This document shows, piece by piece, positions 26,276-41,218 of a stretch of 51,466 nucleotides of DNA. This DNA comes from Burkholderiales bacterium (GTDB lineage: Bacteria; Pseudomonadota; Gammaproteobacteria; Burkholderiales; Burkholderiaceae_E), in the NCBI GenBank assembly GCA_017307915.1, contig JAFKGG010000375.1, forward strand, positions 1-51,466. Reading direction: 5' to 3'. The first letter of the stretch is position 1; every line of letters begins with the position of its first letter. The position numbers and the translations under genes are program-made. The notes beneath the pieces are model-generated. The model saw only the letters and a list, made by a program, of their open reading frames with translations, was not told the origin of the DNA and did not search any database.

Positions 26276-27439
26276 ATGTTCGCCGACCTGCACCAGCTTT
26301 CGCACCACGCCGCCTGGCGCCGCCAGCTCGAGATGCTGCTGGAATCGGCCGGCGAAGGCATCTACGGCATCGATCTGCGCGGCCGCTGCATCTTCATCAA
26401 CGGTGCCGGCGCCGAGCTGCTGGGCTATACGCCCGACGAGGTGCTCGGCCGCAACATGCACTACCTGATCCATCATTCGCACGCCGATGCCGGGCTGATG
26501 CCGGTGCACGACTGCCGCATCTTCAAGGCCTTCAAGGAAGGCCGCGGCTGCCGCGTCGAAGACGAAGTGCTGTGGCGCCGCGACGGCAGCGCGTTCGCCG
26601 CCGAATACGCGTCGTACCCGATCCGCGACGGCGGCGTCGTGGTGGGCGCGGTGGTCACGTTCTCCGACATCAGCGAACGCAAGCGTACCGAGGCCGCGTT
26701 GCAGCAGGCGCATGCCGGGCTGGAACGCCGCGTGGCCGAACGCACCGCCGAGCTGTCGGCCGCCAATCGCCAACTGCGGCAGGCCAGCGACGGGCTGCGG
26801 CGTCTGTCCGCGCACATGAACACGGTGCGCGAGGAAGAGCGCGCGCACATCGCGCGTGACATCCACGATGACCTGGGCGCCTCGCTCACCGCGATGCAGC
26901 TCGAATTGAACTGGCTGCGCCAGCGGCTGGCCGGCCAGACTGAGGCGCTGGCGCACATCGACGCGGCGTTGGAGATCGGCGGCACCGCGATGGGCGCGGT
27001 GCGCCGCATCCTCAACGACCTGCGCCCCGGCGTGCTCGATCATCTGGGCTTGTGGGCCGCGCTCGAATGCCTGCTGCAGGACGCCCAGTCGCGCGGCAGC
27101 CTGCGCTGCAGTTTCGCCTGCCCGCCCGAGGTCGAGCGCTGCCGGCTCGGGCGCGACGCCGAAATCGCCGTGTTCCGCATCGTTCAGGAAGTGCTGACCA
27201 ATGTGCAGCGCCACGCCGGTGCCGCCCAGGTGCTGCTGCGCGCACGTGCCGTCGAAAGCGACCTGCTGATCGCCGTGGAAGACGACGGCTGCGGCATGCA
27301 CGTGCCGGCGCAGCCGACCAGCTTCGGCCTGCTCGGCATGCATGAACGTGCGCATGCGATCGGCGGCACCTTGATGCTCGACAGCGTGCCGGGCAAGGGC
27401 ACCATGGTCAGCCTGCGCCTGCCCGGCGCGCTGGCGTGA
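26276..27439 (+). CDS. PAS-domain sensor histidine kinase (NarX/DegS type, HisKA_3)
   Basis: A 387-residue soluble kinase without obvious membrane helices. It has a PAS sensor at about residues 15-130 ending in the PAC motif FSDISERKRTE, and a coiled coil at about 135-180. The HisKA_3 dimerisation domain has its phospho-acceptor His197 in REEERAHIARDIHDDLG, and the HATPase_c has N-box VQEVLTNVQRHA and G-box DDGCGM. It should phosphorylate the response regulator encoded 10 bases downstream. Signal unknown; a cytoplasmic PAS could sense redox state, oxygen or a small molecule. Confidence 0.92.
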   Translation: MFADLHQLSHHAAWRRQLEMLLESAGEGIYGIDLRGRCIFINGAGAELLGYTPDEVLGRNMHYLIHHSHADAGLMPVHDCRIFKAFKEGRGCRVEDEVLWRRDGSAFAAEYASYPIRDGGVVVGAVVTFSDISERKRTEAALQQAHAGLERRVAERTAELSAANRQLRQASDGLRRLSAHMNTVREEERAHIARDIHDDLGASLTAMQLELNWLRQRLAGQTEALAHIDAALEIGGTAMGAVRRILNDLRPGVLDHLGLWAALECLLQDAQSRGSLRCSFACPPEVERCRLGRDAEIAVFRIVQEVLTNVQRHAGAAQVLLRARAVESDLLIAVEDDGCGMHVPAQPTSFGLLGMHERAHAIGGTLMLDSVPGKGTMVSLRLPGALA

Positions 27440-27449
27440 GGAGCGCGCC

Positions 27450-28085
27450 ATGATCGACCTGCTGATCGTCGACGATCACATGATCATCCGCCGCGGGCTG
27501 ACACAGATTTTCGCCGGCGACCCACGCATCGGCCGCGTCGCTGAAGCGGCCGACGGCCCGGCCGCATTGCGTGAACTGCGTGCGGCGCCGGTGCGGGTGG
27601 TGCTGCTCGACATCGCGCTCGGCGATCGCGATGGGCTCGACGTGCTGCGCTCGATCCGCGCCGAGTTTCCCGGCGTGGCGGTGGTGATGCTGTCGGTGTA
27701 TCCGGAAACGCAGTTCGCGGTGCGCGCGATCCGCGCCGGCGCGGCGGCTTATCTGAACAAGGGGTGTTCGCCCGAGACATTGTTCGCGGCGATCACCAAG
27801 GTGGCGGCCGGCGGTGTCTATGTCACGCCGGTGCTGGCCGAGCTGCTGGCGCGCAACGTGCGCGCCGACGAAGCGCGGCCGCCGCACGAAACGCTGTCGA
27901 ACCGCGAGTTCCAGGTGCTGAAGCTGCTGGCCGAAGGGCGTTCTGTGTCGGAGATCGCCGAGCAGTTGTCGCTGTCGGTGAACACGATCTCGACCTATCG
28001 TGCTCGCGTGTTCGACAAGCTCGGCGTGCGCAGCATGGTCGAGCTGCTGACCTACGCGGCGCGGCAGGATCTGTTGCCGATCTAG
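27450..28085 (+). CDS. NarL/FixJ-family response regulator
   Basis: A 211-residue regulator. The receiver domain has acidic pair Asp8/Asp9, phospho-acceptor Asp54 (VLLDIALGDRDG) and conserved Lys104 (YLNKG). The C-terminal LuxR-type helix-turn-helix is LSNREFQVLKLLAEGRSVSE..LSLSVNTISTYRARVFDKLGV. It is paired with the upstream kinase. It lies between the alcohol/aldehyde dehydrogenase group and the cyanate-linked region, either of which could be its regulon. Confidence 0.95.
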   Translation: MIDLLIVDDHMIIRRGLTQIFAGDPRIGRVAEAADGPAALRELRAAPVRVVLLDIALGDRDGLDVLRSIRAEFPGVAVVMLSVYPETQFAVRAIRAGAAAYLNKGCSPETLFAAITKVAAGGVYVTPVLAELLARNVRADEARPPHETLSNREFQVLKLLAEGRSVSEIAEQLSLSVNTISTYRARVFDKLGVRSMVELLTYAARQDLLPI

Positions 28086-28125: not shown

Positions 28126-29460
28126 TCAAACCTGCGGCTGCATCGCGTCGAAAGTGCGGCCCATGATGACGTGCTTGCGATAGTTGCCGCCCGGCGCCTC
28201 GTAGCCCAGCTCGGCCATCCGCTTGCGTGCATCGGTAGCCAGGAACACCTGCTCGGCGATCTGCCGGTAGTCGACGTCGCGCTTGAGGTAGCCCCAGCGC
28301 TTCATCTGCGTCATCATCCACACCGCCATCGATTGCCACGGAAACGGATCGAAGTCGATGCGCCCGGGTTCGTTGCGAACCTTGCCCAGTCCATCGGCGA
28401 AGCGGCCGAGCAGCACCTGTTCGAGCACCGTGATCGGCTGGTTCAGATAGTTGGGGCCGGCGATCGCCTCGGCCACGGCCTTGCGATTCTTCATCTCGGA
28501 GCAATGCATGGTCGAGGCGACGATCGCACGAAACAGCGCCGAGAAGGCATTGGGCAGTTCGGCGGCGAACTTGCCGGTGGCGGCGAAGGCGCAGCAGGGG
28601 TGCTTGTCCCAGATCTCGCTGCTCAGCATGTGGATGAAACCGACGCCGTCGAACACCGCGCGCTGGTTGAACGGTTCGGCGACGATGAAGCCGTCGATGT
28701 TGCCCGAGCGCAGGTTGGCCACCATGTCGGGCGGGGCCATCACGCGCAGCTGCACGTCGCGATCGGGATCGACGCCGTGCGCGCTCAGGTAGTGGCGCAG
28801 CAGGAAGTTGTGCATCGAGTAGTCGAACGGTATCGCAAAGCGCATGCCCTTCCAGCTCTTCGGGTCGCGCTTGTCCTTGTGCTGGATGCCCAGCGTGATC
28901 GCGCTGCCGTTCACGTTCTCGATCGCCGGCATCACCATAGGGATCGCTTCCGATCCCAGCCCCAGACTGATCGCCAGCGGCATCGGCGACAGCATGTGCG
29001 CGGCGTCGAACTCGCCGGCCAGCGTCTTGTCGCGCACCACCGCCCAGCCGGCGGTGCGCATCAGCGAGACCTTCAGGCCTTCCCGGGCATACAGGCCGAG
29101 CGGCTCGGCGGCGACCAGCGGCGTGGCGCAGGTGATCGGCAGAAAGCCGATCTTCAGTTCGGCCTTCTCGGGCGGCTTGCGATCCATCGCCAGCGCGGTG
29201 GCTGCGCCGAGCGGGAATACGCTCGAGACGGCGGCCAGCGCCGTGCCGGTGCCGACGCTGCGCAGGAAATAACGGCGCTGCACATCGTCGGGAAACAGCG
29301 CGCGCATCAGGCCGGCCTGCACCAGACGCGTGGCTGCAAGCGATTCATCGGCGTGCGGCGTGTCGTCGTCGTGTTCGGCCTGGTTGCGATGGCGGCCGCA
29401 GCCGCAGCCGCAGCCGCGCAGCGGACGGTCGGCGTCGAAAGGATCGTCGAAGAGGGGCAT
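28126..29460 (-). CDS. CynA/NrtA/CmpA-family ABC substrate-binding protein (paralogue without its own permease)
   Basis: A 444-residue binding protein of the nitrate/cyanate/bicarbonate class: LKIGFLPITCATPLVAAEPLG, AAHMLSPMPLAISLG, WKGMRFAIPFDYSMHNFLLR and EIWDKHPCCAFAA. A twin-arginine signal (QRRYFLRSVGTGTALAA) starts near residue 60. Before it is an extension with GCGCGCGRHRNQAEHDD. It is the third gene of the sigma-54-controlled OsmC/ACAD operon, 51 bases downstream of the ACAD gene. A clear paralogue is cynA at 34045, so this one may share that permease and ATPase. Ligand inferred only from the family. Confidence 0.88.
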   Translation of the reverse strand: MPLFDDPFDADRPLRGCGCGCGRHRNQAEHDDDTPHADESLAATRLVQAGLMRALFPDDVQRRYFLRSVGTGTALAAVSSVFPLGAATALAMDRKPPEKAELKIGFLPITCATPLVAAEPLGLYAREGLKVSLMRTAGWAVVRDKTLAGEFDAAHMLSPMPLAISLGLGSEAIPMVMPAIENVNGSAITLGIQHKDKRDPKSWKGMRFAIPFDYSMHNFLLRHYLSAHGVDPDRDVQLRVMAPPDMVANLRSGNIDGFIVAEPFNQRAVFDGVGFIHMLSSEIWDKHPCCAFAATGKFAAELPNAFSALFRAIVASTMHCSEMKNRKAVAEAIAGPNYLNQPITVLEQVLLGRFADGLGKVRNEPGRIDFDPFPWQSMAVWMMTQMKRWGYLKRDVDYRQIAEQVFLATDARKRMAELGYEAPGGNYRKHVIMGRTFDAMQPQV

Positions 29461-29511
29461 CGAGGTTCTCCGGTCGGGCAGTGACGGGGCGGAAGAAGGC
29501 GCTTGTTGGTG

Positions 29512-30657
29512 TCAGGCAGCGAGGCCGGCGTCGGCGGCCTGCAGTTGAGCGATCTCGCGGCGTAGATGCTTGAGCGCCGGCGTGACGATCGCCACGAAAT
29601 AGGCTTCGCGCAGCCGGCGCTGCGCCGGGCTGCGCATCAGATAGCCGCGCGCGCCCTGATGCAGCATGGCCGCATTGGCCGCGCGCAACGCCAGTTCGCT
29701 GCCGGCCGCGCGCAGGCGCAGAATCTCGGGCACCACGTCGGCCAGCGGCTCGCAGGCCAGCGTCTCGGCCAGCGCATGCGTGCGTTCATGTGCATCGGCC
29801 AGCGCCGCTTCGATGTCGCCGACTTGATCGTCCAGATAACGATTGACGTGCGCCAGCTGCCGGTTGGCCTCGTGCATCAGCGCCACGCAGCCCGCTACCA
29901 GGCCCAGCCCCATGCCCATCTGCGCCAGGATCATGCCGGGCTTGATGCGCCGCAGATAGGCGCGCCCTTCATCGGGGTGCGCCAGCACCTCGGCGTCGGC
30001 GATGAAGGTCGATCTGAAACGGCAGGCCAGCGTACGCGTGCCGTCGAGTGCGGCGAAATGCGCGCAATCGGCCAGGTGCACGCTGGTGTTCGCGCAATCG
30101 ACCAGGAAGAACATCATGCCGCCGTCGTCGCTGGGGCAGCCGGTGACGAACACGTGATCGCGGCCGAGGTTCGATACCCACGGCAGCGTGCCGTCGATCT
30201 CGTAGCCGCCGGCGACGCGGCGCGCCGACAGGCGGAAATTCTCGATGCCGTCGTTCGATTTCATCGTGTTCGACAAACCGGTGCCGGCCATCGTTTCGCC
30301 GCGCGCGATGCGCGGCAGCCAGAACGCCTTGGCGGCTTCGTTGCACGACAATTGCAGATAGCGCGCGCAGGCGGTCTGGCACCACACCAGAAAGCCGCTG
30401 GACAGGCACTGCCGCGAGACCGCCTGCATCACGTCGAGCGTGTGGCGCAGGCCCAGGCCGTTGCCGCCATGAGCCGGTGCCACGACGCCGGCAAAGCCGC
30501 CGAGCGCACCGAGCGCGCGCAGAAAATCGGCCGGGTACAGCGCCTGCCGATCGATGTCGATGATTTGCGGAATCAACTGGCGTTCGATCAGTGCGTCGAT
30601 GGCGGCGAGATCGCCGCCGCGCGAAGCGGCACCGGCGATGAGGGGATCGGCGTGCAT
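29512..30657 (-). CDS. Acyl-CoA dehydrogenase-fold flavoprotein, possibly a monooxygenase
   Basis: A 381-residue ACAD-superfamily protein: LGGFAGVVAPAHGGNGLGLRH in the N-domain, GTGLSNTMKSND in the flavin-facing beta domain, and a helical C-domain ending REAYFVAIVTPALKHLRREI. The YEG(T/A) motif that brings the catalytic Glu in many acyl-CoA dehydrogenases is not seen at the expected place. A role like the ACAD-fold flavin monooxygenases (DszC/SfnC type) is therefore an alternative. It lies 89 bases after the OsmC gene in the sigma-54 operon. The ATG at 30657 is used. Substrate unknown. Confidence 0.8.
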   Translation of the reverse strand: MHADPLIAGAASRGGDLAAIDALIERQLIPQIIDIDRQALYPADFLRALGALGGFAGVVAPAHGGNGLGLRHTLDVMQAVSRQCLSSGFLVWCQTACARYLQLSCNEAAKAFWLPRIARGETMAGTGLSNTMKSNDGIENFRLSARRVAGGYEIDGTLPWVSNLGRDHVFVTGCPSDDGGMMFFLVDCANTSVHLADCAHFAALDGTRTLACRFRSTFIADAEVLAHPDEGRAYLRRIKPGMILAQMGMGLGLVAGCVALMHEANRQLAHVNRYLDDQVGDIEAALADAHERTHALAETLACEPLADVVPEILRLRAAGSELALRAANAAMLHQGARGYLMRSPAQRRLREAYFVAIVTPALKHLRREIAQLQAADAGLAA

Positions 30658-30746
30658 ACGTGCATCCTTCGGCGAGAGAGCAGGGGCCCGGCGCGGCCGG
30701 GCGGCATCGATCGACAGCGGCGTGACGGCGCCGCCGCCCTTGCGTG

Positions 30747-31301
30747 TCAGGCGAGCTGCACGGTCATCGGAATCGGATTGCGGAAGCTGTTGGCCACCGG
30801 CGAAAAGAAATTGGCGTGGCGCACGATCTCGTCCAGCGCCTCGCGGCTGGCGTCGCCTTCGACCACCACTTTCACGCGCACCGCCTGAAAGCCCATCGTC
30901 TCGGGGGTCTTGTCCGCGCCGCCGGCGCCCCAGGCAGCCGGGTTGCCGATGTCGCCTTCGAGAAACAGCTCGAGCTTGTGCAGCTCGACCTGCTTCCACG
31001 TCGCGACCGCCTGGATGCCGACCGACAGGCATGCGCCGAGCGCGGCCAGCAGCACTTCCGACGGTGCCGGCGCCGTATCTTGACCGAACAGATGCAGCGG
31101 TTCGTCGACCACCACCGGCACGTGCGTACCTACGTAGCTGAGGTTGCGGAACTGGCCGTCGGCGATCGTGTGCACCTTCATCACGCCCTGCGAGCAGGGG
31201 TTGTTGCGGCCTTTCTCGGCGAAGGCCAGCAGGCCGTCGCGATCGATCGGTTTCAGGCGGGTGCGGACGGTTTCCGCGGCGGGCATGGCCATGTCGTTCA
31301 T
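30747..31301 (-). CDS. OsmC-family protein
   Basis: A 184-residue OsmC/Ohr-fold protein. The helix cysteine is in LLAALGACLSVGIQAVATW; a second Cys is in NNPCSQGVMKVH. PSEVLLAAL and the C-terminal NPIPMTVQLA strand are family-like. OsmC proteins reduce organic hydroperoxides, but many operon-embedded members have unknown jobs. It is the first gene after a consensus sigma-54 promoter, so here it is a specialised catabolic or detoxifying component rather than a general stress protein. Confidence 0.85.
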   Translation of the reverse strand: MNDMAMPAAETVRTRLKPIDRDGLLAFAEKGRNNPCSQGVMKVHTIADGQFRNLSYVGTHVPVVVDEPLHLFGQDTAPAPSEVLLAALGACLSVGIQAVATWKQVELHKLELFLEGDIGNPAAWGAGGADKTPETMGFQAVRVKVVVEGDASREALDEIVRHANFFSPVANSFRNPIPMTVQLA

Positions 31302-31374
31302 CTCGATCTCCTTGGATTCACGGGGCAGCGCAGTCCGGAACTCAGACCGGACGCAGCGCTTGCGTCATGGCGAT

Positions 31375-31390
31375 TGCAAGCTCCGTGCCA
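31375..31390 (-). promoter_or_regulatory. Sigma-54 (-24/-12) promoter for the OsmC operon
   Basis: On the minus strand the sequence is TGGCACGGAGCTTGCA, a full match to the RpoN consensus TGGCACG-N4-TTGCW. Transcription would begin near 31363, about 62 bases before the OsmC start. Confidence 0.85.
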
Positions 31391-31481
31391 TTCGGCACAG
31401 GGCTACGTTACTGCTTGTGAATCAAGGGCTTATCAGAGAGAACGCGACCAGCGTCGCGGCGCAAATGTAGACGATGAATTG

Positions 31482-31501
31482 TGAACAATTCGAATTGTTC
31501 A
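31482..31501. promoter_or_regulatory. 20-bp perfect palindrome, probable enhancer (UAS) for the sigma-54 regulator
   Basis: TGAACAATTCGAATTGTTCA reads the same on both strands. Additional GAATTGT/ACAATTC half-sites flank it (from about 31475 to 31510). It lies about 120-140 bases upstream of the predicted sigma-54 start site, the usual distance for a bacterial enhancer, and directly after the stop of the enhancer-binding-protein gene. Confidence 0.75.
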
Positions 31502-31502
31502 T

Positions 31503-33086
31503 TCAATTCGAGGCCAATACCTGCAAGCGGTATTGCAATTGCCGCAGGCTCAGGCCCAGCCGCTGCGCGGCCGCCGATTTGTTGCCGCCGGTTTCTTGCA
31601 GCGCGGCCTCGATGCGCGCGCGATCATCGCTGTCGACGTAGCGATAGGCGCGGGTGCGGCGTGGTGATGGTGTCGAAGCGGGCGGCATCGGCGATGCATG
31701 CGCGGGCCCAGACTCACGCAAACCCGTCGCCGCGGGCTCGCTCGCCAGCGCCTCGTTCACCGCGACCCCGTCCAGCGTCACCGCACCCCGCTGCATCAGC
31801 ACGATGCGCTCGATCACGTTCTGCAACTGCCGCACGTTGCCGGGCCAGCCATAGTCGATCAAGCGCCCGATGGCCGCCGGCGACAGGTTCACCGCGCGCT
31901 GGTGCTGCTGGTTGAAACGGTGCAGGAAATGCCGCACCAGCGTAGGAATGTCGTCGCGGCGCCGGCGCAGCGGCGGCAGCGTCACCGGCACCACGTTGAG
32001 CCGATAGAAAAGATCGAGCCGGAACAGCCCCGCATCGACGCGGGCCTGAAGATCCTGATTGGTGGCCGCCACGATGCGCACGTCGACCGGCCGTTCACGA
32101 TGCCCGCCCAGGCGTTCGACGACGCGCTCGGCCAGCGCGCGCAGCAGCTTGGCTTGCAGCGCCAATGGCATCTCGCCGATCTCATCGAGAAACAGCGTGC
32201 CGCCATCGGCCAGTTCGAACTTGCCGGCGCGCGCGCCGGCGGCGCCGGTATAGGCGCCTTTCTCGTGGCCGAACAGTTCGGCCTCGAACAGCGGCTCGGG
32301 CAGCGCGGCGCAATTGAGCTTGACGAACGGGCCGTCACGACGCCGCGACATCATGTGCAGGGCGCGCGCCACCAGTTCCTTGCCGGTGCCCGATTCGCCC
32401 AGCAGCAGCATCGTTGCGTCGGTGTCGGCCACGCGTTCGATCTGGCGCAGCGCGGTCAGCAGCGCCGGCGCTTCGCCGATGATGCCGCAAGCGTGCGCAT
32501 AGCTGCCGGCTCGCTCCAGCTCTTCCTTCAGCGCGCGGTTCTCGCGTTCCAGCGCCGCCGTGCGCGCGGCGACGTGATGCTCCAGTTCGAGCAACTGGCC
32601 AACCAGCGCCACCAGGATGCCGAGCAGGCGCAGATCCTCGGCCAGGCCGCGGTCGCGGCGCCGCAGGCGATGCACGCCGAGCACGCCCACCACTTTCGAT
32701 TCGCGCAGCACCGGCAGCGCGATGTAGGCCACGGTTTCCTGCGGCAGTTGCTCGCGCGGCACCGATCGGAACAGAAAACGCGGCTCGGCATCGACGTCTT
32801 GCACCACGACGGCTTCGCCGCTCTGGAACACGTGGCCGGTGATGCCTTCGCCGGGCGCGAATACGCCGGCCCGCGCCTGTGCTCGCGTCAGGCCATAGCT
32901 GTAGCGGATGGCGAGCGCGCCGCGCGCCGCGTCCCACAGTGCGACGCGGCCGCGATTCAGGCCCAGGAACTCCGAGGCCAGATGCAGGATCTCGCGAATC
33001 GCGGGCCCCGGGTCCAGGCTGCGTCCGAGCATGCGCACCGCGCCCTGGATGACCAGCATTTCGCGCTCGGCCCACGGCGTGGCCAT
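31503..33086 (-). CDS. Sigma-54-dependent transcriptional activator (GAF-AAA+-Fis)
   Basis: A 527-residue enhancer-binding protein. It has a GAF sensor at about residues 25-160, a coiled coil at 165-195, and the AAA+ core with Walker A GESGTGKE (230-237), the sigma-54 contact loop [13 protein letters not shown] (GAFTGA with the common Phe to Tyr change) and Walker [16 protein letters not shown]-terminal Fis helix-turn-helix ends the protein ([20 protein letters not shown]). The start at 33086 is approximate: no clear ribosome site, and a GTG 11 codons upstream is possible. It presumably binds the adjacent palindrome and drives the OsmC operon; GAF domains sense small molecules or redox state. 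Confidence 0.93.
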
Positions 33087-33323
33087 GCGCGCGGCGGATG
33101 AATGCGAAGCGGCGTTCACGGCGGCGGTTCCGATGAAGACGTACGAGCAGGCGAGGCTCGCCCGCTGCAAACCAGTGTAGCCCTCGCCGCGCCGTAGCGC
33201 GCCCGCGCCGCCGACCACATCGTGTAGGGCCAGCACTACATGCGGATCACGACACGCGCGATACCGGCCGTGCAGCGCGGCGCGCAAGATCCAATCCATC
33301 GAGCCAGCACGACGAGGATCGAA

Positions 33324-34025
33324 ATGCAGCGCAAGCCGGGATTCAGATTGGGTGTCTTCGTGTTCAAGGATGCGGAGATCGCCGACTATGCCGGCCCGTG
33401 CAGCGTGTTCGCGGTGGCGCAGCGCTTCGATCCCGAGCTCGACGTGTTCCTGGTCGCCGAAGGCGCGCGGCCGGTGGCTACCTGCGCCGGCATCACGGTG
33501 CAGCCCGCCTATGCGCTGGCCGAGCAGCCGGCGCTCGATGCCTTCGTGATCCCCGGCGGGCCCGGCGTGCGCCAGCAGATGCACAACCGCAGGCTGCACG
33601 ACTACCTGCGCGCGCTGCCGGCCGATTGCCTGCTGGCCAGCGTCGGCACCGGCTCATGGGTCTATGCCCGCATGGGCGTGCTCGATGGCCTGCCGGCCAC
33701 CAATCGCAAGGAACCCGATCGCTACGAGGCCTCGCATCTGGGCAAGACGCCGATCGACCGCCTCGCCGAGCTGGCGCCGCACTGCCGCGTCAGCTGGGCG
33801 CGCATCGTCGATGCCGGCCGCGTCGTGACTGCCGGCGGCATCAGCGCCGGCGTCGAGCTGGGCCTGCATCTGCTGCGCCGGGCGGGCCGTGACGAAACCT
33901 TCGTGCGCGAAGTGGCGCGCGTCATGGAATACCAGCGTGGCTACGAGTGCTACGCGCACGACATCGAATACGCCGCTGCCGCATCGCCCGCCGGCGCGCG
34001 GCTGCTGGACACCACCTCCGCCTGA
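33324..34025 (+). CDS. DJ-1/PfpI-family protein (isonitrile hydratase-like) lacking the nucleophile Cys
   Basis: A 233-residue DJ-1/PfpI-fold protein resembling isocyanide hydratase and the amidase-like half of GlxA regulators: LGVFVFKDAEIADYAGPCSVFA, DAFVIPGGPGVRQQM, and the elbow LLASVGTGSWVYARMGVLDGLPATN. At the elbow the family usually has SVCTGA; here Cys is Gly108, while the next Thr is kept. Classical isonitrile hydration or protease chemistry is thus unlikely. CGAGGATCGAA precedes the ATG. It starts the rightward unit ahead of cynABD-cynS (20 bases to cynA), so a role in binding or converting a cyanate-related compound is possible. Confidence 0.82.
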   Translation: MQRKPGFRLGVFVFKDAEIADYAGPCSVFAVAQRFDPELDVFLVAEGARPVATCAGITVQPAYALAEQPALDAFVIPGGPGVRQQMHNRRLHDYLRALPADCLLASVGTGSWVYARMGVLDGLPATNRKEPDRYEASHLGKTPIDRLAELAPHCRVSWARIVDAGRVVTAGGISAGVELGLHLLRRAGRDETFVREVARVMEYQRGYECYAHDIEYAAAASPAGARLLDTTSA

Positions 34026-34044
34026 ACCCGACAAGGAGCCCTTC

Positions 34045-35406
34045 ATGTCTGCTTTCCGCAATCCCTTCGACTGGCGCACGCGTTTGTCTCACAGCGGCTG
34101 CGCCTGCGGCCGGCACCGCAGTGCGGCCGAGCACGAACAGGCCGAAGCGCTGGCTGCGCAGCAGATGCAGGAACGCGTCGTGGAAGGCGCAGTGATGCGC
34201 GCGCTGTTTCCCGACGATGCGCTGCGGCGCCGCTTCCTGCATGCGGTGGGCGGCGGCACGGCGCTGGCGGCGGTGTCGGCGCTGTTTCCGCTGGGAGCCG
34301 CCAAGGAAGCCTTCGCGCAGGGCAGCGGCAAGCTGGAGAAGAGCAAGCTCAGCGTCGGCTTCATTCCGATCACCTGCGCCACGCCGATCATCATGGCGCA
34401 TCCGCTGGGCTTTTATGCGAAGCACGGGCTGGACGTGGCGGTGGTGAAGACCGCCGGCTGGGCGGTGATCCGCGACAAAGCGATCGCCAAGGAATACGAC
34501 GCCGCGCACATGCTGTCGCCGATGCCGCTGGCGATTTCCACCGGCACCGGTTCGAACCCGATCGCGTGGACGGCGCCGGCCATCGAAAACATCAACGGCC
34601 AGGCGATCACCTTGTCGATCAAGCACAAGGACAAGCGCGACCCGAAGAGCTGGAAGGGCTTCAAGTTCGCCGTGCCGTTCGACTATTCGATGCACAACTA
34701 TCTGTTGCGCTACTACCTGGCCGAGCATGGGCTCGATCCCGATCGCGACGTGCAGATCCGCTCGGTGCCGCCGCCCGAGATGGTGGCCAACCTGCGTGCC
34801 GACAACATCGACGGGTTTCTGGCGCCCGATCCGGTCAACCAGCGTGCGGTATACGACGGCGTGGGCTTCATCCACACCTTGTCGAAGGAGATCTGGAACG
34901 GTCACCCGTGCTGCGCGTTCGCGGCCAGCAAGGAATTCGTCACCGCTCATCCGAACACCTATCACGCGCTGCTCAAAGCGATCCTCGACGCCACTGCGTA
35001 TGCGCGCAAGCCCGAGAACCGCAAGGAGATCGCAGCGGCGATCGCGCCGGCCAACTATCTGAACCAGCCGGTGACGGTGGTCGAGCAGGTGCTGACCGGC
35101 ACCTATGCCGACGGCCTGGGCAACGTGAAGAAGGATCCGAACCGCATCGACTTCGATCCCTTCCCCTACGACTCGTTCGCCATCTGGATTCTGACGCAGA
35201 TGAAGCGCTGGGGCCAGATCAAGGGCGACGTCGACTACGCCAAGGTGGCGCGCGAGGTGTTCCTGGCCACCGATGCCGCGCGCCTGATGAAAGAACTGGG
35301 CATGCCGCCGGCCGATCCGGCCAAGCCGATCGTGGTGATGGGCAAGGCCTTCGATCCGAAGCAGCCGGCGGCTTACGTGAACAGCTTTGCGATCAAGAGG
35401 AGCTGA
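34045..35406 (+). CDS. cynA: Cyanate-type ABC transporter substrate-binding protein (CynA/NrtA family)
   Basis: A 453-residue periplasmic binding protein of the NrtA/CmpA/CynA family: LSVGFIPITCATPIIMAHPLG, AAHMLSPMPLAIST, WKGFKFAVPFDYSMHNYLLR, EIWNGHPCCAFAA. A twin-arginine signal (LRRRFLHAVGGGTALAA) follows an N-terminal extension with SGCACGRHRSAAEH, which its paralogue at 28126 shares. AAGGAGCCCTTC precedes the ATG. The order binding protein, permease, ATPase, cyanase matches the cyanobacterial cynABDS operon, so cyanate is the favoured ligand; nitrate or bicarbonate cannot be excluded by sequence. Confidence 0.88.
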   Translation: MSAFRNPFDWRTRLSHSGCACGRHRSAAEHEQAEALAAQQMQERVVEGAVMRALFPDDALRRRFLHAVGGGTALAAVSALFPLGAAKEAFAQGSGKLEKSKLSVGFIPITCATPIIMAHPLGFYAKHGLDVAVVKTAGWAVIRDKAIAKEYDAAHMLSPMPLAISTGTGSNPIAWTAPAIENINGQAITLSIKHKDKRDPKSWKGFKFAVPFDYSMHNYLLRYYLAEHGLDPDRDVQIRSVPPPEMVANLRADNIDGFLAPDPVNQRAVYDGVGFIHTLSKEIWNGHPCCAFAASKEFVTAHPNTYHALLKAILDATAYARKPENRKEIAAAIAPANYLNQPVTVVEQVLTGTYADGLGNVKKDPNRIDFDPFPYDSFAIWILTQMKRWGQIKGDVDYAKVAREVFLATDAARLMKELGMPPADPAKPIVVMGKAFDPKQPAAYVNSFAIKRS

Positions 35407-35409
35407 GCG

Positions 35410-36252
35410 ATGAAGGCTGCTCGACCCTGGCTGGCGCCGCTGCTGTCGGTGCTGTTTCTCGCGCTGTTCGTCGGCGTCTGGTCTCTGGCCACGCAGCAGC
35501 GCTCGGCCGACGTGAAGGTGGATTCGGAGTATGCCGCGCTGGTCGGGCAGGCCGCGGCCACCGGCGCCAAGTCGGCGCTGCCCTCGCCGGGCGAGGTCGG
35601 CGCCAAGCTGTGGCAGCACCTGTCCGATCCGTTCTACGACCGCGGCACCAACGACAAGGGCATCGGTACGCAGCTGATGTATTCGATCGGCCGCGTGCTG
35701 CTCGGCTTCGGGCTGGCCGCGCTGGTGGCGATTCCGCTCGGCTTTCTGATCGGCATGTCGCCGCTGATCTATCGCGCGCTGGATCCGTTCATCCAGGTGC
35801 TCAAGCCGGTGTCGCCGCTGGCGTGGATGCCGCTGGCGCTGTACACGATCAAGGATTCGGGCATTTCGGCGATCTTCGTGATCTTCATCTGCTCGCTGTG
35901 GCCGATGCTGGTCAATACTGCCTTCGGCGTGGCCGGTGTGCGCCGCGACTGGCTGAACGTGGCGCGCACGCTCGAGGTCTCGCGCTTGCGCACGGCATTC
36001 AACGTGATCCTGCCGGCGGCGGCGCCCACGATCATGACCGGCATGCGCATCTCGATCGGCATCGCGTGGCTGGTCATCGTCGCCGCCGAGATGCTGGTCG
36101 GCGGCACCGGCATCGGCTACTTCGTCTGGAATGAGTGGAACAACCTGTCGATCGCCAACATCATCAGCGCGATTCTGTTCATCGGCCTGATCGGCATGCT
36201 GCTCGATACGCTGCTGGCCCGGCTGGCGCGCGCCGTCACATACCGGGAATGA
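35410..36252 (+). CDS. cynB: Cyanate-type ABC transporter permease (CynB/NrtB family)
   Basis: A 280-residue permease with about six membrane segments, starting WLAPLLSVLFLALFVGVWSL. The large periplasmic segment between helices 1 and 2 is typical of NrtB. The cytoplasmic loop ARTLEVSRLRTAFNVILPAAAPTIMTGMR is the EAA-like contact with the ATPase. It starts three bases after the cynA stop and is followed three bases later by cynD. Confidence 0.93.
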   Translation: MKAARPWLAPLLSVLFLALFVGVWSLATQQRSADVKVDSEYAALVGQAAATGAKSALPSPGEVGAKLWQHLSDPFYDRGTNDKGIGTQLMYSIGRVLLGFGLAALVAIPLGFLIGMSPLIYRALDPFIQVLKPVSPLAWMPLALYTIKDSGISAIFVIFICSLWPMLVNTAFGVAGVRRDWLNVARTLEVSRLRTAFNVILPAAAPTIMTGMRISIGIAWLVIVAAEMLVGGTGIGYFVWNEWNNLSIANIISAILFIGLIGMLLDTLLARLARAVTYRE

Positions 36253-36255
36253 GCC

Positions 36256-37203
36256 ATGACGCAGCCTTTCCTCAAGGTCGAAGCATTGGCCAAGCGCTAT
36301 CCGGGGCCGTCGGGCAAACCGGGCACTACGGTCTTCGAGAACATCCACTTCGGCATCGACAAGGGCGAGTTCGTCTGCATCGTCGGCCATTCGGGCTGCG
36401 GCAAGACGACGATCCTGAACGTGCTGGCCGGCCTGGACGAAGCCAGCGAAGGCGTGGTCATCATGGATGGCCGCGAAGTGCGCGGGCCATCACTGGATCG
36501 CGGCGTGGTGTTCCAGGGGCATGCCTTGCTGCCGTGGTTGTCGACGCTGAAGAACGTGGAATTCGGCGTGCGCTCGCGCTGGCCGCAATGGAGCGCGCGG
36601 CAGATCGAGGAGCACAGCACGCGCTATCTGCAAATGGTGGGGCTGGGCCAGGCGCTGCACAAGAAGCCGGCCGAGCTGTCGGGCGGCATGAAGCAGCGCG
36701 TGGGCATTGCGCGCGCCTTTGCCATCCAGCCGAAGATGCTGCTGCTCGATGAGCCCTTCGGTGCGCTCGATGCGCTGACGCGCGGCACCATCCAGGACGA
36801 GCTGCTGAGCATCGTGCAGGCCACGCACCAGACGGTGTTCATGATCACGCACGACGTCGACGAAGCGATCCTGCTCGCCGACAAGGTGCTGCTGATGAGC
36901 AACGGCCCGTATGCGCGCATCGCCGAGATCGTCGACATCACGATGCCGCGCGATCGCAGCCGTCACAGCATTCATCACGATCCGCAGTACTACCGGATCC
37001 GCAACCACCTGGTCGATTTTCTGGTGAACCGCTCCAAGGATTACGCGGCCGATACCCCTGCCGCGGCCGCCCACGATCCGCGGCACCCGCCGCTGGTGCG
37101 CCCGGGGCTGGAAGGTGGTGCCGACGTGCTGCCGCTGGCCGCGGGCTCGCCCGCCGTGATGCCCGTGCTCAAACCCGTCTCGTCCGCTTCTGCTTCTGCT
37201 TGA
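36256..37203 (+). CDS. cynD: Cyanate-type ABC transporter ATP-binding protein (CynD/NrtD family)
   Basis: A 315-residue ABC ATPase: Walker A GHSGCGKTT, signature LSGGMKQRVGIARAF, Walker B MLLLDEPFGALD, H-loop ITHDVDEA. After the core (to about residue 262) a 50-residue Ala/Pro-rich tail follows; it lacks the NrtC regulatory domain. With cynA and cynB it completes the importer. Confidence 0.93.
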   Translation: MTQPFLKVEALAKRYPGPSGKPGTTVFENIHFGIDKGEFVCIVGHSGCGKTTILNVLAGLDEASEGVVIMDGREVRGPSLDRGVVFQGHALLPWLSTLKNVEFGVRSRWPQWSARQIEEHSTRYLQMVGLGQALHKKPAELSGGMKQRVGIARAFAIQPKMLLLDEPFGALDALTRGTIQDELLSIVQATHQTVFMITHDVDEAILLADKVLLMSNGPYARIAEIVDITMPRDRSRHSIHHDPQYYRIRNHLVDFLVNRSKDYAADTPAAAAHDPRHPPLVRPGLEGGADVLPLAAGSPAVMPVLKPVSSASASA

Positions 37204-37228
37204 CCTTGATAGTGAAAGGAAGAACCCC

Positions 37229-37672
37229 ATGACCCGCAATGAAGTCACCGCGCTGATTCTCGCCGCCAAGCTGAAGAGGAAGCTGAGCTGGGCGCAACTG
37301 GCCGAGGTGCTCGGCCAGAGCAAGGAATGGTCGACGGCCGCGCTGCTTGGCCAGATGACGCTGACCGAGCAGCAGGCGCAAGCCGTAGGGCGTGCGCTCG
37401 ATCTGCCCGAAGCGGCCGTCGCGCAACTGCAAGTAGTGCCGTACAAGGGTTCGCTGCCGACCTCAGTGCCGACCGATCCGCTGATCTATCGGTTCTATGA
37501 GCTGATCAGCGTCTACGGCACCACGTTCAAGGAACTGATCCATGAAGAATTCGGCGACGGCATCATGAGCGCCATCGATTTCAAGATGGATCTGCAGCGC
37601 GAGCCGAATCCGGCCGGCGATCGGGTCAGCATCACGATGAGCGGGAAGTTTCTGCCGTACAAGACCTACTGA
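37229..37672 (+). CDS. cynS: Cyanate hydratase (cyanase)
   Basis: A 147-residue cyanase that converts cyanate and bicarbonate to ammonia and two CO2. The active-site residues known from Escherichia coli (Arg96, Glu99, Ser122) are present in IYRFYELISVYGTTFKELIH and GIMSAIDFKMD, and the helical N-domain (NEVTALILAAKLKRKLSWAQ) is intact. GAAAGGAAGAACCCC precedes the ATG. Located 25 bases after cynD, it fixes the function of the importer as cyanate uptake or of the whole unit as cyanate detoxification and nitrogen supply. Confidence 0.97.
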   Translation: MTRNEVTALILAAKLKRKLSWAQLAEVLGQSKEWSTAALLGQMTLTEQQAQAVGRALDLPEAAVAQLQVVPYKGSLPTSVPTDPLIYRFYELISVYGTTFKELIHEEFGDGIMSAIDFKMDLQREPNPAGDRVSITMSGKFLPYKTY

Positions 37673-37740: not shown

Positions 37741-38541
37741 TTACGTCAGCGTGCCTTTCATGTAGGCGTCGATCGCGGCCGAACGTACCGCCGGATCGTG
37801 CAGGCCGTCGGCGTCGAAGATGGCCTCGCCGTGATGCATGACGATGACGCGCTGCGCGGTGGAGACGATCAGGTCGAGGTCATGCTCGATCCAGACGGTG
37901 CCGACATTGCATTCGCGCTGGGCGATGGCGATGAGTTCCGGGATCAGCGCGCGTTCCTGGTGGCTCATGCCCGAGGCGGGTTCGTCCAGCAGCAGCGCCA
38001 GCGGTTCACTGACCAGCGCGCGCGCCAGATCGACGCGGCGCCGCAGGCCCAGAGGCAGGTCGTCGACCGCCTGATCGGCATGCGCCTCGAGCCCGCAGCG
38101 CGCGATCATGTGCCGTGCGCGCTCACGCGCGGCCGATTCCGCCGCGCGTGAACCCCAGGGCCGGAATATCTGCCGGAGCAGGCGCGGCGGCTGGCACGAG
38201 GCCAGCCCGATCATGACGTTATCGGTCACGCTCAAGCCGGGTATGAGATTGGCGTGCTGGAACGTGCGCGACAGGCGGCAGGCGCCGCGCTCGTGCGCCG
38301 GCAGGTGGTCGATGCGCACGCCGTTGACGCTGATGCGGGCTGACGGATCAGGCTGGTACAGACCGGTGATGCAGTTCATCAGCGCCGATTTGCCGGCGCC
38401 GTTCGGGCCGATCAGCCCGACGACTTCGCCCGCTTTGACGCGAAAGCCGACGTCGCGCAGAACGCGCAGGCCGCCGAAGTGCAGGCAGACCTGTTCCACT
38501 TCGAGAATGCAGGGTGCGCTGGAGGAAGAAGCTTCGGTCAT
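37741..38541 (-). CDS. livG: Branched-chain amino acid-type ABC transporter ATPase LivG
   Basis: A 266-residue LivG-type ATPase: Walker A GPNGAGKSALMN, the LivG-style signature DLPLGLRRRVDLARAL in place of LSGGQ, Walker B LALLLDEPASGM and H-loop WIEHDLDLI. It is the last gene of the operon; its start overlaps the livF stop by four bases. The Liv (HAAT) family carries branched-chain amino acids but also aromatic acids, amides and urea; here a degradable acid is as likely as an amino acid. Confidence 0.93.
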   Translation of the reverse strand: MTEASSSSAPCILEVEQVCLHFGGLRVLRDVGFRVKAGEVVGLIGPNGAGKSALMNCITGLYQPDPSARISVNGVRIDHLPAHERGACRLSRTFQHANLIPGLSVTDNVMIGLASCQPPRLLRQIFRPWGSRAAESAARERARHMIARCGLEAHADQAVDDLPLGLRRRVDLARALVSEPLALLLDEPASGMSHQERALIPELIAIAQRECNVGTVWIEHDLDLIVSTAQRVIVMHHGEAIFDADGLHDPAVRSAAIDAYMKGTLT

Positions 38542-39278
38542 GATTGTGTCGCGCGCGCAATGCCGCCCTCTGCCAGGCGCTGCTCGAGTGCCGCGCGATC
38601 GACGATGCTCAGATCGATCGCGTCGCCGGACACGCAGCCGCGGTCCATCAGATAGGCGCGCTCGGCCAGATGATGAATCCAGGCGCTACCGGCCTCGGCG
38701 AGCAGCAGCGTCAGGCCGAGTTCGCGGCGCAGGCGGTGCAGGTCTTCGCACAGCCCTTCGATGACCGGCACCGACAAGCCCAGCGTGGGCTCGTCCAGCA
38801 GCAGCAGGCGCGGTGACGCGAGCAGCGCCATCGAGATGGCCAGCATCTGTTGTTCGCCGCCCGACAGATTGCCGGCCAGAGACTGGCGGCGCTCGGCCAG
38901 GCGTGGAAACAATTCGTAGACGTCGGCACGGGTCAGAGCGCCGTCGCGTGTGCCGCGCATGCCGACGGTCAGGTTCTCGTCGACGGTCAGCAGGCGGAAC
39001 ACCTTGCCGGTTTCGGGCACCAGGCCTGCCGGGCCGGCCCATTGCCGTCGGCTGCCGGCGGCGTCGGCGGCCGACCATCGCAGTTGACCGTCTCGACGCG
39101 CGTTCGGCGGCAGGGCGTCGGCAATGGCGGTCAGGGTAGTGCTCTTACCGGCCCCGTTGTGCCCGACCAATGCGACGGCCGAGCGGCGATCGATGTGCAG
39201 GTCGACCCGTCGCACGGCCTGCATGACGCCGAAGCGTACGCTCAGGCCGTCGACTTTCAGCAGGTGATCGGTGCTCAT
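38538..39278 (-). CDS. livF: Branched-chain amino acid-type ABC transporter ATPase LivF
   Basis: A 246-residue LivF-type ATPase: Walker A GHNGAGKSTT, signature LSGGEQQMLAIS, Walker B LLLLDEPTLGLS. After it the usual LLVEQN reads LLLAEAG, a small departure from the family. Its ATG overlaps the livM stop and its stop overlaps the livG start, each by four bases (ATGA), so the three are translationally coupled. Confidence 0.92.
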   Translation of the reverse strand: MSTDHLLKVDGLSVRFGVMQAVRRVDLHIDRRSAVALVGHNGAGKSTTLTAIADALPPNARRDGQLRWSAADAAGSRRQWAGPAGLVPETGKVFRLLTVDENLTVGMRGTRDGALTRADVYELFPRLAERRQSLAGNLSGGEQQMLAISMALLASPRLLLLDEPTLGLSVPVIEGLCEDLHRLRRELGLTLLLAEAGSAWIHHLAERAYLMDRGCVSGDAIDLSIVDRAALEQRLAEGGIARATQS

Positions 39279-40303
39279 CGGGCCTCCGCGCTGGGCCGCA
39301 GGGGTAGCAGACGGCGCCGGATCCGGCCCCCTACGCGCAGCAGCACCAGGATCAGGATCAGTCCGAGCGCGATGTTCTCGCTTCCTGCGCCGCGGCTGAC
39401 GACGTCGATGCCCGCTTCGGTCAGTGCATACGACAGCGCATGAGGCAGGATCGTGATCAGGTAGGCCGCGAGGATCGCGCCGGTGAGATTGCCCAGCCCG
39501 CCGAGCACGACGACCGCGAGACTGACGATGGACAAATGGAACGGAAAAGCGCCGACCTGCACGACGCCGCCGTAGTAGCCGCTGAGCGCGCCCGCCGCTG
39601 AAGTCACGAATGAGGTCAGCATGAAGGCGCCGACGCGCACCCTGAACTGGGAGATGCCCATCGCGGCCGCGACTGAATGCGCCTCGCGGGTGGCAACCCA
39701 GGCGCGGCCGACCGAGCTGCGCAGAATGCGCCTGAAGAACCACCACGTGAGCAGCATCAGCCCCGCTATCAGATACCACCAGTGCTGGTCGGTCGCGAAT
39801 TCGAACGAGCCGAAGGTCAGCGGCGGCATCACGAATCCGTTGGCGCCGGTCTGCTTGACTTCGATGTCGGTCAATACCAGCTCGACCAATTGATGCAGCG
39901 CGAAGGTGCCGACGGCCAGATAGATGCCGATCGCGCGGATGGTGATCGCCGCGATCGCCCCGCCGATCAGCATGCCGATCAGTCCGGCCCATAGCAGGAT
40001 CGGTATCACGCCGGCATCGGCCATGAAACCGTTGGCGGCCATGCCGGCCGAGAACGCGCCGATGGCCAGGAACGCGGCCTGGCCCAGCGAGAGCAGCCCG
40101 GCGGTGCCGGTGAGCACCGTCAAGGCCATGGCGGAGATCGCCAATAATCCGCCCGCGTTGAGCAGATGCATGTGGAAGGCGTTGGCGAACAGCGGCGCGA
40201 CTGCAATGAGGCCCACTATCACGGCTGCGCCGATCGCGGGCAGTGCGCGCCGGTCGGCGGGCGCGGTCATGGAGAACCCCGGAGCGCTTGAGTCGCCTGA
40301 CAT
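39275..40303 (-). CDS. livM: Branched-chain amino acid-type ABC transporter permease LivM
   Basis: A 342-residue permease with about ten hydrophobic segments. LivM-family regions are LTGTAGLLSLGQAAFLAIGAFSAG and FRRILRSSVGRAWVATREAHSVAAAMG (the EAA-like loop), followed by GALSGYYGGVV. It is encoded three bases after livH and overlaps livF. Confidence 0.93.
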   Translation of the reverse strand: MSGDSSAPGFSMTAPADRRALPAIGAAVIVGLIAVAPLFANAFHMHLLNAGGLLAISAMALTVLTGTAGLLSLGQAAFLAIGAFSAGMAANGFMADAGVIPILLWAGLIGMLIGGAIAAITIRAIGIYLAVGTFALHQLVELVLTDIEVKQTGANGFVMPPLTFGSFEFATDQHWWYLIAGLMLLTWWFFRRILRSSVGRAWVATREAHSVAAAMGISQFRVRVGAFMLTSFVTSAAGALSGYYGGVVQVGAFPFHLSIVSLAVVVLGGLGNLTGAILAAYLITILPHALSYALTEAGIDVVSRGAGSENIALGLILILVLLRVGGRIRRRLLPLRPSAEAR

Positions 40304-40306
40304 GCT

Positions 40307-41197
40307 TCAGACCCGCGTGATGGTTTCGGCGCGACCGATCAGACCGAACGGCCGGAACATCAGAACGACCAGCAAGGCGAGAACCGGCACGACCTGGCTG
40401 TAGCGAGGCTCGAAGAACAGCACCACCACGGCTTGGCCCAAGGCGATCAGGATCGCGCCGAGGATCGCGCCGACCAGGCTGGTCATGCCGCCGAGAATGG
40501 CGGCGACGATGCCGCTGATGCCGACCACCGCAGCCTCCATCGACACGGTCGACAGCGCGGCCGTGGTGATGCCGGCGACAGCCGACAGTGCGCTGGCGAT
40601 CAGCCAGGCGGCTGCCAGGACCCGCTTGACCTTGACGCCGCGCAGCATGGCCAGCGTTTCGTTGTCGGCGACGGCGCGCATGTCTATGCCCAGGCGCGAG
40701 CGGTGGATCAAGACCAGCACGAGCGCGATGGCCACGCCGTTGAGCGCAATGGCCGCGATGCTGTTGACGGTCAAGGTGGCGCCGCCCACTTGCCACGAGC
40801 CCGACATCAGCGGCAGGCGGATCACTTCGCCTGACCAGATCATGCTGGCGACACCGAGCAGAACGATGCCCACGGCGATCGTCAGCACCGTGCCGACGAA
40901 ATGGCCGAGGCGCCCGGCAGCGCGATCGATCAGCAGATGCGTGCCCATGCCCGCGACAGCGGCGAACGACAGCGCGGCCAGCAGACCCAGGGGCAGCGCC
41001 CATGCCGGCATGCCGTCCACGCCGAGGGCGACGGTGGCCGCCAGGTACGCGCAGACTATGCCCAGCTCGCCCGCGTGGAACATCAATACCCGGTTGGAGC
41101 GGTAGACCACGACTATGGCAACCGCAACGGCTGCATAGGTCGATGCCGTTGCCCCGACGGTGGCGAGGAAGGCCAGTGGGTGGACGAGCTGAGTCAC
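40307..41197 (-). CDS. livH: Branched-chain amino acid-type ABC transporter permease LivH
   Basis: A 296-residue permease with the LivH pattern: VVVYRSNRVLMFHAGELGIVCAYLAAT near the N-terminus, the loop RSRLGIDMRAVADNETLAMLRGV, and VGISGIVAAILGGMTSLVGAILGA. It pairs with LivM and lies 21 bases downstream of the binding-protein gene. Confidence 0.93.
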   Translation of the reverse strand: MTQLVHPLAFLATVGATASTYAAVAVAIVVVYRSNRVLMFHAGELGIVCAYLAATVALGVDGMPAWALPLGLLAALSFAAVAGMGTHLLIDRAAGRLGHFVGTVLTIAVGIVLLGVASMIWSGEVIRLPLMSGSWQVGGATLTVNSIAAIALNGVAIALVLVLIHRSRLGIDMRAVADNETLAMLRGVKVKRVLAAAWLIASALSAVAGITTAALSTVSMEAAVVGISGIVAAILGGMTSLVGAILGAILIALGQAVVVLFFEPRYSQVVPVLALLVVLMFRPFGLIGRAETITRV

Positions 41198-41218
41198 GAT
41201 GCGCGCTGCAGGCCGTGC

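Follow-up and report, generated by a model that had tools for sequence, protein, structure and literature searches.

What is the role of an operon encoding an OsmC-family protein and a flavoprotein of the acyl-CoA dehydrogenase (ACAD) fold, when it lies back to back with the genes for uptake and breakdown of cyanate? The question is raised by a 51,466-nucleotide stretch of DNA (hereafter the window) from a Burkholderiales bacterium, contig JAFKGG010000375.1, which is contig 154 of a 6.1 Mb assembly of 521 contigs (GCA_017307915.1). Open reading frames (ORFs) and profile matches define two gene groups at 28126-37672 that diverge around a sigma-54-dependent activator. The leftward group, on the minus strand, comprises the activator (31503-33086), OsmC (30747-31301), the ACAD-fold flavoprotein (29512-30657) and CynA2 (28126-29460), a second CynA-like binding protein, while the rightward group on the plus strand (33324-37672) starts with a DJ-1-family gene followed by cynA, cynB, cynD and cynS. 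An earlier note, made from the sequence alone, had read this region as an OsmC-flavoprotein operon with its own regulator and CynA paralogue that suggests oxidation of an imported nitrogen, or sulfur and nitrogen, compound, with cyanate as a product or accompaniment. All the genes it listed are indeed present and in frame, the activator, a sigma-54 promoter and CynA2 are confirmed as parts of or companions to the operon, and oxidation of an imported sulfur- and nitrogen-containing compound to cyanate is suggested by the gene set.

We propose, with a probability of roughly 0.5 and on the basis of sequence comparisons, that OsmC and the ACAD protein, together with a rubredoxin, may form a front end that cleaves thiocyanate to cyanate and persulfide sulfur, with cynABDS as the back end. 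That the substrate gives both cyanate and reduced sulfur is likely; for thiocyanate itself, which is read from the neighbouring genes, the odds appear about even.

Conservation of the OsmC-ACAD module and its linked genes

The 79 named loci considered here are the best matches of a single genome scan with an OsmC alignment, a lower bound on their number. A gene was scored as present in these loci and in controls when tblastn covered 60% of the query at an identity of 35% or more; in many loci a contig ends inside the neighbourhood, related species are not independent, and at least two assemblies contribute two loci each (L036/L044 and L070/L091). The loci stem mostly from Burkholderiales, and also from Methylobacterium, Beijerinckiaceae, Stutzerimonas, Pseudomonas and Marinobacter; among the carriers are the laboratory strains Acidovorax delafieldii DSM 64, Herbaspirillum frisingense GSF30, Stutzerimonas stutzeri 24a75 and Methylorubrum rhodesianum DSM 5687. 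The ACAD gene is present in 75/79 of them, and a rubredoxin/NAD(P)H:rubredoxin reductase (RubR; rubredoxin plus Pyr_redox_2) in 67/79. Among 40 control regions of 20 kb, taken from seven genomes of the window's order, cynD matched in two, the sensor kinase and the response regulator described below in one each, and all other queries in none.

The module is linked to cyn genes across Alpha-, Beta- and Gammaproteobacteria, with cynA in 48/79 and cynS in 38/79 loci, and in many of these the cyn and OsmC genes are co-directional. Typical gene orders are activator-OsmC-ACAD-RubR-cynABD-cynS, or rhodanese-OsmC-ACAD-RubR facing cynABDS. The divergent layout of the window is repeated in Azoarcus indigens and in three genomes of other families (G083, G168 and G192), whereas a Marinobacter plasmid carries ABC-activator-OsmC-ACAD-RubR-CynS in a single run and an Acetobacter plasmid OsmC-ACAD-rubredoxin-cynABDS-porin-activator, both plasmids being typed as conjugative. 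One scan of viral contigs found no ACAD relative. The linkage extends to the level of genomes: among 250 sampled from the order, with OsmC of the module type defined by an E-value of at most 1e-40, cyanase occurs in 12 of 14 OsmC-positive genomes versus 48 of the 236 others (Fisher p 9e-7, which ignores kinship and includes the window genome; with that genome removed, 11/13 OsmC-positive genomes and p 3e-6). The neighbourhood is hence conserved in relatives, on which the earlier note had staked its interpretation, and the co-occurrence with cyn genes that it named as a check holds for OsmC and ACAD and fails for DJ-1, matched in one locus only.

Further genes, beyond those the earlier note had listed, came to light only through the loci of relatives: the rubredoxin/reductase as well as a set of sulfur genes. 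A two-domain rhodanese lies beside the module in 29/79 loci and a Blh-like persulfide dioxygenase, a metallo-beta-lactamase protein, in 11/79; the Blh match scores 343 bits over the dioxygenase part (positions 141-422 of 423), below the whole-protein cut-off of 625. TauE/SafE (sulfite) exporters were found in seven loci by clustering; tblastn undercounts them (two loci, the query's own being missed), and their absence from controls says little. By tblastn, at least one of the three sulfur genes is present in 40/79 loci versus 0/40 control regions. As a further control, ten cyanase loci without the module were picked for long contigs from the 48 cyanase-positive, OsmC-negative genomes. Eight of these carry cynA and one a weak rubredoxin-reductase match (29% identity), while rhodanese and persulfide dioxygenase are found in 0/10 and TauE, poorly detected as it is, gave no match either. 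Because these module-free cyanase loci lack such matches, the sulfur genes appear to travel with OsmC-ACAD rather than with cyn as such. Taken together, the rubredoxin/reductase and sulfur genes of relatives suggest that sulfur is released and that the substrate is thiocyanate.

Several loci depart from the common arrangement. In a Neisseria gonorrhoeae record (L025, NZ_CP119140.1, 5983-7368), an ACAD relative of 44% identity is directly followed by a short rubredoxin-matching ORF, and neither OsmC nor cyn genes were found in the 13 kb retrieved; this arrangement suggests that ACAD and rubredoxin form the core pair. The second OsmC locus of a Stutzerimonas kunmingensis assembly (L044, 10001-11900) reads OsmC-CynS-rhodanese without ACAD. 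A plasmid of Rhizobium sp. AB2/73 (L106, 5899-10555) encodes an OsmC of the same type (63% identity) but has no ACAD among its annotated genes; nearby are nitrile-hydratase-type subunits, CbtAB and a DUF302 protein. As the nitrile-hydratase-type genes score above the threshold for nitrile hydratase but below the one for thiocyanate hydrolase, the locus was not used as evidence for thiocyanate. Nine loci of Alcaligenaceae, Sheuella and related bacteria (L082, L083, L084, L086, L089, L093 and L100-L102) carry OsmC-ACAD-RubR without cyn flanks, and with varying sets of beta-lactamase-family, Ldh_2 dehydrogenase, cupin and Iso_dh-type dehydrogenase genes. L031, L037 and L055, which hold a variant of the module with an SsuABC-type importer, have a cytochrome P450 gene after RubR, and the Methylobacterium-group copies L066, L078, L085 and G309 have persulfide dioxygenase and TauE genes in the module neighbourhood.

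A candidate route from thiocyanate to cyanate

The ACAD protein (Acyl-CoA_dh_N, 54 bits) is predicted with a pLDDT (predicted local distance difference test) of 92.8 and has the ACAD fold by structure comparison. In short- and medium-chain acyl-CoA dehydrogenases (SCAD and MCAD), the catalytic glutamate lies in the motif IYEGT. At the SCAD-type position the window protein has Thr359, in the single printed profile alignment that reaches it (8i4p), and threonine occupies this position in at least 90% of 63 sequences. The protein thus belongs to the family by fold and lacks the SCAD/MCAD-type catalytic residue; in addition, the module ACAD differs from SCAD-type dehydrogenases in the rubredoxin/reductase gene beside it in relatives, and its identity to SCAD, isovaleryl-CoA dehydrogenase and 3-sulfinopropionyl-CoA desulfinase is about 20% or less. 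The OsmC protein carries the OsmC domain (PF02566, 70 bits, cut-off 27.5). OsmC/Ohr thiol peroxidases use two redox cysteines, but in the module protein Cys91 is present in 97/97 aligned rows (the window sequence counted twice) without a second conserved cysteine, leaving the OsmC domain without the redox pair. The operon is tightly packed, with gaps of 89 bp between OsmC and ACAD and 51 bp between ACAD and CynA2. The latter, of the CmpA/NrtA type (NMT1_2, 267 bits), is 60% identical to CynA and has an 82% identical counterpart at the same position in Azoarcus indigens (L026).

We infer from these features that CynA2 may be a thiocyanate-binding protein, the ACAD-fold flavoprotein the thiocyanate-oxidising enzyme and OsmC, with its lone Cys91, the sulfur acceptor. 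Thiocyanate would enter through CynA2 and the CynBD membrane parts, or through an SsuABC-like importer in other genomes. Electrons would then pass from NAD(P)H via rubredoxin reductase and rubredoxin to the ACAD-bound flavin, and the reduced flavin with O2 would oxygenate the thiocyanate sulfur to OSCN-. Attack on OSCN- by Cys91 of OsmC and hydrolysis would free cyanate and leave a cysteine persulfide, from which the sulfur would be passed on by glutathione, persulfide dioxygenase and rhodanese to sulfite or thiosulfate, for export or assimilation, while CynS would convert cyanate to ammonium and CO2. The window genome would need to rely on rubredoxins and a reductase that are not linked to the module. 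The oxygenation and sulfur-transfer steps derive from protein families and chemistry, and it is unlikely that they proceed precisely as written. Thiocyanate would be the simplest substrate, because it accounts at once for a CmpA/NrtA-type importer, a flavoprotein, the supply of cyanate to CynS and that of sulfane sulfur to rhodanese and persulfide dioxygenase; CmpA/NrtA-type binding proteins handle small inorganic anions. Thiocyanate hydrolase (TIGR03887, gamma subunit) scored over its cut-off in 0/23 module genomes, a search that did not extend to the copper-dependent thiocyanate dehydrogenase (TcDH).

A number of observations weigh against the thiocyanate proposal. Cyn genes are not linked in 25/79 loci, and five of these genomes have no cyanase at all; the other 20, which speak for the proposal, still encode a cyanase at another place, although in one of them the match is only partial. 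Two 99%-complete genomes, G018 and G033, carry OsmC without cynS. The fold comparison is headed by acyl-CoA dehydrogenases rather than flavin monooxygenases, and no flavin-monooxygenase fold is present in the 50 rows shown for either comparison, which neither excludes nor supports monooxygenation. The cytochrome P450 or beta-lactamase-family/Ldh_2/Iso_dh-type neighbours of some loci are not explained by the model. The window itself has no linked rubredoxin, none of its ORFs was identified as a linked rhodanese, persulfide dioxygenase or exporter, and the best full-domain rubredoxin reductase match of its genome is only 31% identical. Matches to TIGR03887 below the cut-off occur in 8/23 module genomes, none of them the window genome, and are taken as putative nitrile hydratases. 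Finally, cyanase is described as not being a reliable marker of the cyanate pathway (PMC5328954, PMC6504805).

One genome and one genus deserve separate mention. Locus L114 (5513-10803) of G018, which has no match to cyanase, holds an OsmC-ACAD-cynABD run; this genome may use the sulfur rather than the nitrogen. Within the genus to which G309 belongs (Methylobacterium fujisawaense, locus L063), high-scoring OsmC occurs in 20/111 genomes, which fits the growth of Methylobacterium on thiocyanate as nitrogen source (PMC5328954). Cyanase occurs in 108/111, and its co-occurrence with OsmC in this genus was rejected as evidence for the proposal since cyanase is near-universal. In five of the 20, a complete cyanase lies no more than 10 kb from OsmC; in a sixth, G309, an apparent second cyanase near OsmC is split in two pieces.

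How do other explanations fare against the same data? The substrate could be an organic sulfur-nitrogen compound (an isothiocyanate, thiocarbamate, thiohydantoin or similar) or a sulfonate-like compound that yields cyanate or a precursor plus reduced sulfur. The sulfur genes, an SsuABC/TauABC-like importer that replaces cynABD in some loci, and occasional glutathione S-transferase, P450 and hydrolase neighbours would all fit. We consider this rather unlikely, with a CynA-type binding protein, of a family for small inorganic anions, in 48/79 loci, and with the commonest neighbour families including no amidase, lyase or enzyme acting on a carbon skeleton; sulfonates are disfavoured because they leave cyanase unexplained. 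Sulfur scavenging by an SfnB/DszC-like desulfurising flavin enzyme with OsmC, its adjacency to cyn being due to shared nitrogen/sulfur-starvation and sigma-54 regulation, is congruent with the ACAD-fold family, the sulfonate-type importers of some loci, the cyanase-free G018 and G033, and a sigma-54 promoter compatible with starvation control. Nonetheless, it is improbable in view of the cyanase co-occurrence (12/14 versus 48/236 genomes), the co-directional cyn and OsmC genes in many loci, and the absence of the activator from all ten module-free cyanase loci.

A protective function, with OsmC, the flavoprotein and rubredoxin removing peroxide or reactive species of thiocyanate or cyanate during Cyn activity, draws on the OsmC/Ohr relatives being peroxide-resistance proteins. 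It is highly improbable, as OsmC lacks the second conserved cysteine and the paired importer gene, dedicated sigma-54 activator and persulfide dioxygenase indicate catabolism. Last, ACAD and rubredoxin might constitute a cyanide monooxygenase that turns HCN into cyanate, while rhodanese would detoxify in parallel. Cyanide, neutral and diffusible as HCN, is disfavoured because it needs neither an importer nor persulfide oxidation, leaving the persulfide dioxygenase and sulfite exporter genes inside operons without an evident role. A route of cyanide monooxygenase plus cyanase is described, with no gene cited, in the part of PMC5778177 used here, as is the conversion of cyanide to thiocyanate by rhodanese; in Pseudomonas pseudoalcaligenes CECT5344, however, cyanide and cyanate use are reported as independent (PMC6627978), and the cyanide explanation has only a small chance of being correct.

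Sigma-54 control and the divergent cyn group

The only exact sigma-54 (-24/-12) consensus match of the window, TGGCACGGAGCTTGC at 31376-31390 on the minus strand, is situated in front of the OsmC-ACAD-CynA2 operon. Sites with at most one mismatch are at chance level in the window (6 seen versus 5.1 expected), and the case for a real promoter therefore lies in its conservation across loci. A site matching at least 9/11 positions is located upstream of OsmC in 37/79 loci and upstream of the rhodanese that precedes OsmC in 27 more, giving a promoter-like site before either gene in 64/79 and before neither in 15, whereas 120/2370 windows drawn at random from that DNA contain one. A perfect 20-bp palindrome, TGAACAATTCGAATTGTTCA (31482-31501), precedes the promoter by about 110 bp and is a candidate enhancer (upstream activating sequence) for the activator. 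Palindromes upstream of the promoter recur in 36/42 rows (35/41 distinct, the window's own locus being entered twice) versus 87/840 controls shuffled by single bases; their distance from the promoter is mostly about 80-155 bp across loci, and many of those in other loci contain TGTCGACA- or GACAATGT-like half-sites. Together, these elements resemble a promoter with an enhancer on which the adjacent activator would act, a protein of 527 residues with GAF, Sigma54_activat (235 bits) and Fis helix-turn-helix domains.

The activator matches in 49/79 module loci versus 0/10 module-free cyanase loci. A two-component pair, on the other hand, adjoins cynA in 3/10 of the latter. In the window this pair (26276-28085, plus strand, convergent to CynA2) consists of a PAS-HisKA_3 sensor kinase (26276-27439), which forms an accessory, cyn-associated two-component system with a LuxR/NarL-type response regulator (27450-28085); both are assigned by Pfam, with matches in 10/79 and 18/79 module loci, respectively. 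The proportions in module-free cyanase loci (0/10 and 3/10) suggest that, within the window's order, the activator is part of the OsmC module whereas the two-component pair accompanies cyn.

On the other side of the activator, the DJ-1/PfpI-family gene (33324-34025; PF01965, 38 bits) opens the cyn operon, followed by CynA, the cyanate-type ATP-binding cassette (ABC) substrate-binding protein with relatives in 48/79 module loci (34045-35406), the permease CynB (35410-36252; TIGR01183, 234.9 bits, cut-off 209.05), the ATPase CynD (36256-37203; TIGR01184, 295.2 bits, cut-off 291.8) and the cyanase CynS (37229-37672; TIGR00673, 176 bits, cut-off 113.3; PF02560, 124 bits, cut-off 25), all on the plus strand. 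CynS is the sole cyanase match in the window's genome. Just downstream, on the opposite strand at 37741-42430, is a set of genes judged by eye to encode a branched-chain-amino-acid-type ABC importer.

DJ-1 enzymes of the isonitrile-hydratase type use an elbow cysteine. A core role of DJ-1 as isonitrile hydratase was rejected, as DJ-1 is present in 1/79 loci, only that of Azoarcus indigens (L026), and has the elbow SVGTG without cysteine; it is outside the conserved module and is not supported as the pathway member that the earlier note had made it. The best sigma-54 sites of the cyn operon reach 8/11 before DJ-1 and 7/11 before cynA, rendering sigma-54 control of the window's cynABDS unconvincing. 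The description of the region as sigma-54-controlled thus stands for the OsmC operon, with its exact and conserved promoter, and not for cynABDS. As a whole, the earlier interpretation was right in outline, partly supported through the OsmC-ACAD operon and its cyn linkage, and not supported on DJ-1 and on cynABDS control.

Relation to described cyanate and thiocyanate systems

Sigma-54 control of cynABDS is as such already known through cynF (PMC6627978). The cynFABDS cluster of P. pseudoalcaligenes CECT5344 likewise has a sigma-54-dependent Fis-type activator adjoining cynABDS and combines an ABC importer with cyanase for use of cyanate as nitrogen source (PMC6627978). The window shares the Fis-family activator adjacent to cynABDS, but shows no convincing sigma-54 promoter ahead of its cyn operon, whether before DJ-1 or before cynA: the site precedes cynA in CECT5344 and OsmC in the window. 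Unlike in the window, the flanks in CECT5344 are glutamate synthase, hemE and IS4 genes, and the main text of that paper contains none of the terms 'OsmC', 'acyl-CoA' and 'rubredoxin' (PMC6627978).

Two thiocyanate routes are described, a hydrolase that forms carbonyl sulfide and a copper dehydrogenase that forms cyanate and sulfur (PMC5328954, PMC5778177). The module resembles the Thioalkalivibrio TcDH pathway in the proposed products, cyanate and sulfur from thiocyanate, and in nearby ABC transporter genes and a sigma-54-responsive regulator. TcDH, however, is a copper enzyme with a Tat signal and a cytochrome c acceptor, and OsmC, ACAD and rubredoxin are absent from the TcDH section of that article (PMC5328954). 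In the Thiobacillus thioparus thiocyanate hydrolase cluster, a NitT/TauT-family ABC importer, sulfur-transfer genes and cyanase similarly adjoin the degrading enzyme, which in contrast to the module is a cobalt-containing, nitrile-hydratase-type protein yielding carbonyl sulfide and NH3 (PMC5328954). Within the open-access literature searched, subscription papers and preprints being mostly outside this scope, we found no description of an OsmC-ACAD-rubredoxin module with sulfur genes. Tentatively, and at somewhat below even odds, the module may thus represent a third enzymatic route for thiocyanate, in which a cytoplasmic, rubredoxin-fed ACAD-fold flavoprotein works with a one-cysteine OsmC carrier to form cyanate and persulfide.

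Heterotrophs including Methylobacterium, Ralstonia and Sphingomonas are reported to grow on thiocyanate as nitrogen source, Methylobacterium thiocyanatum on thiocyanate and on cyanate as sole nitrogen sources (Wood et al. 1998, cited in PMC5328954), and in the parts of PMC5328954 drawn on here a first enzyme is named only for the hydrolase and copper-dehydrogenase routes. The gene set described here makes this first step of thiocyanate use by heterotrophs directly testable. If correct, the proposal would bring new enzymology for the ACAD fold and for OsmC, and would yield a marker gene with which to follow the turnover of thiocyanate in soil, freshwater and mine wastewater.

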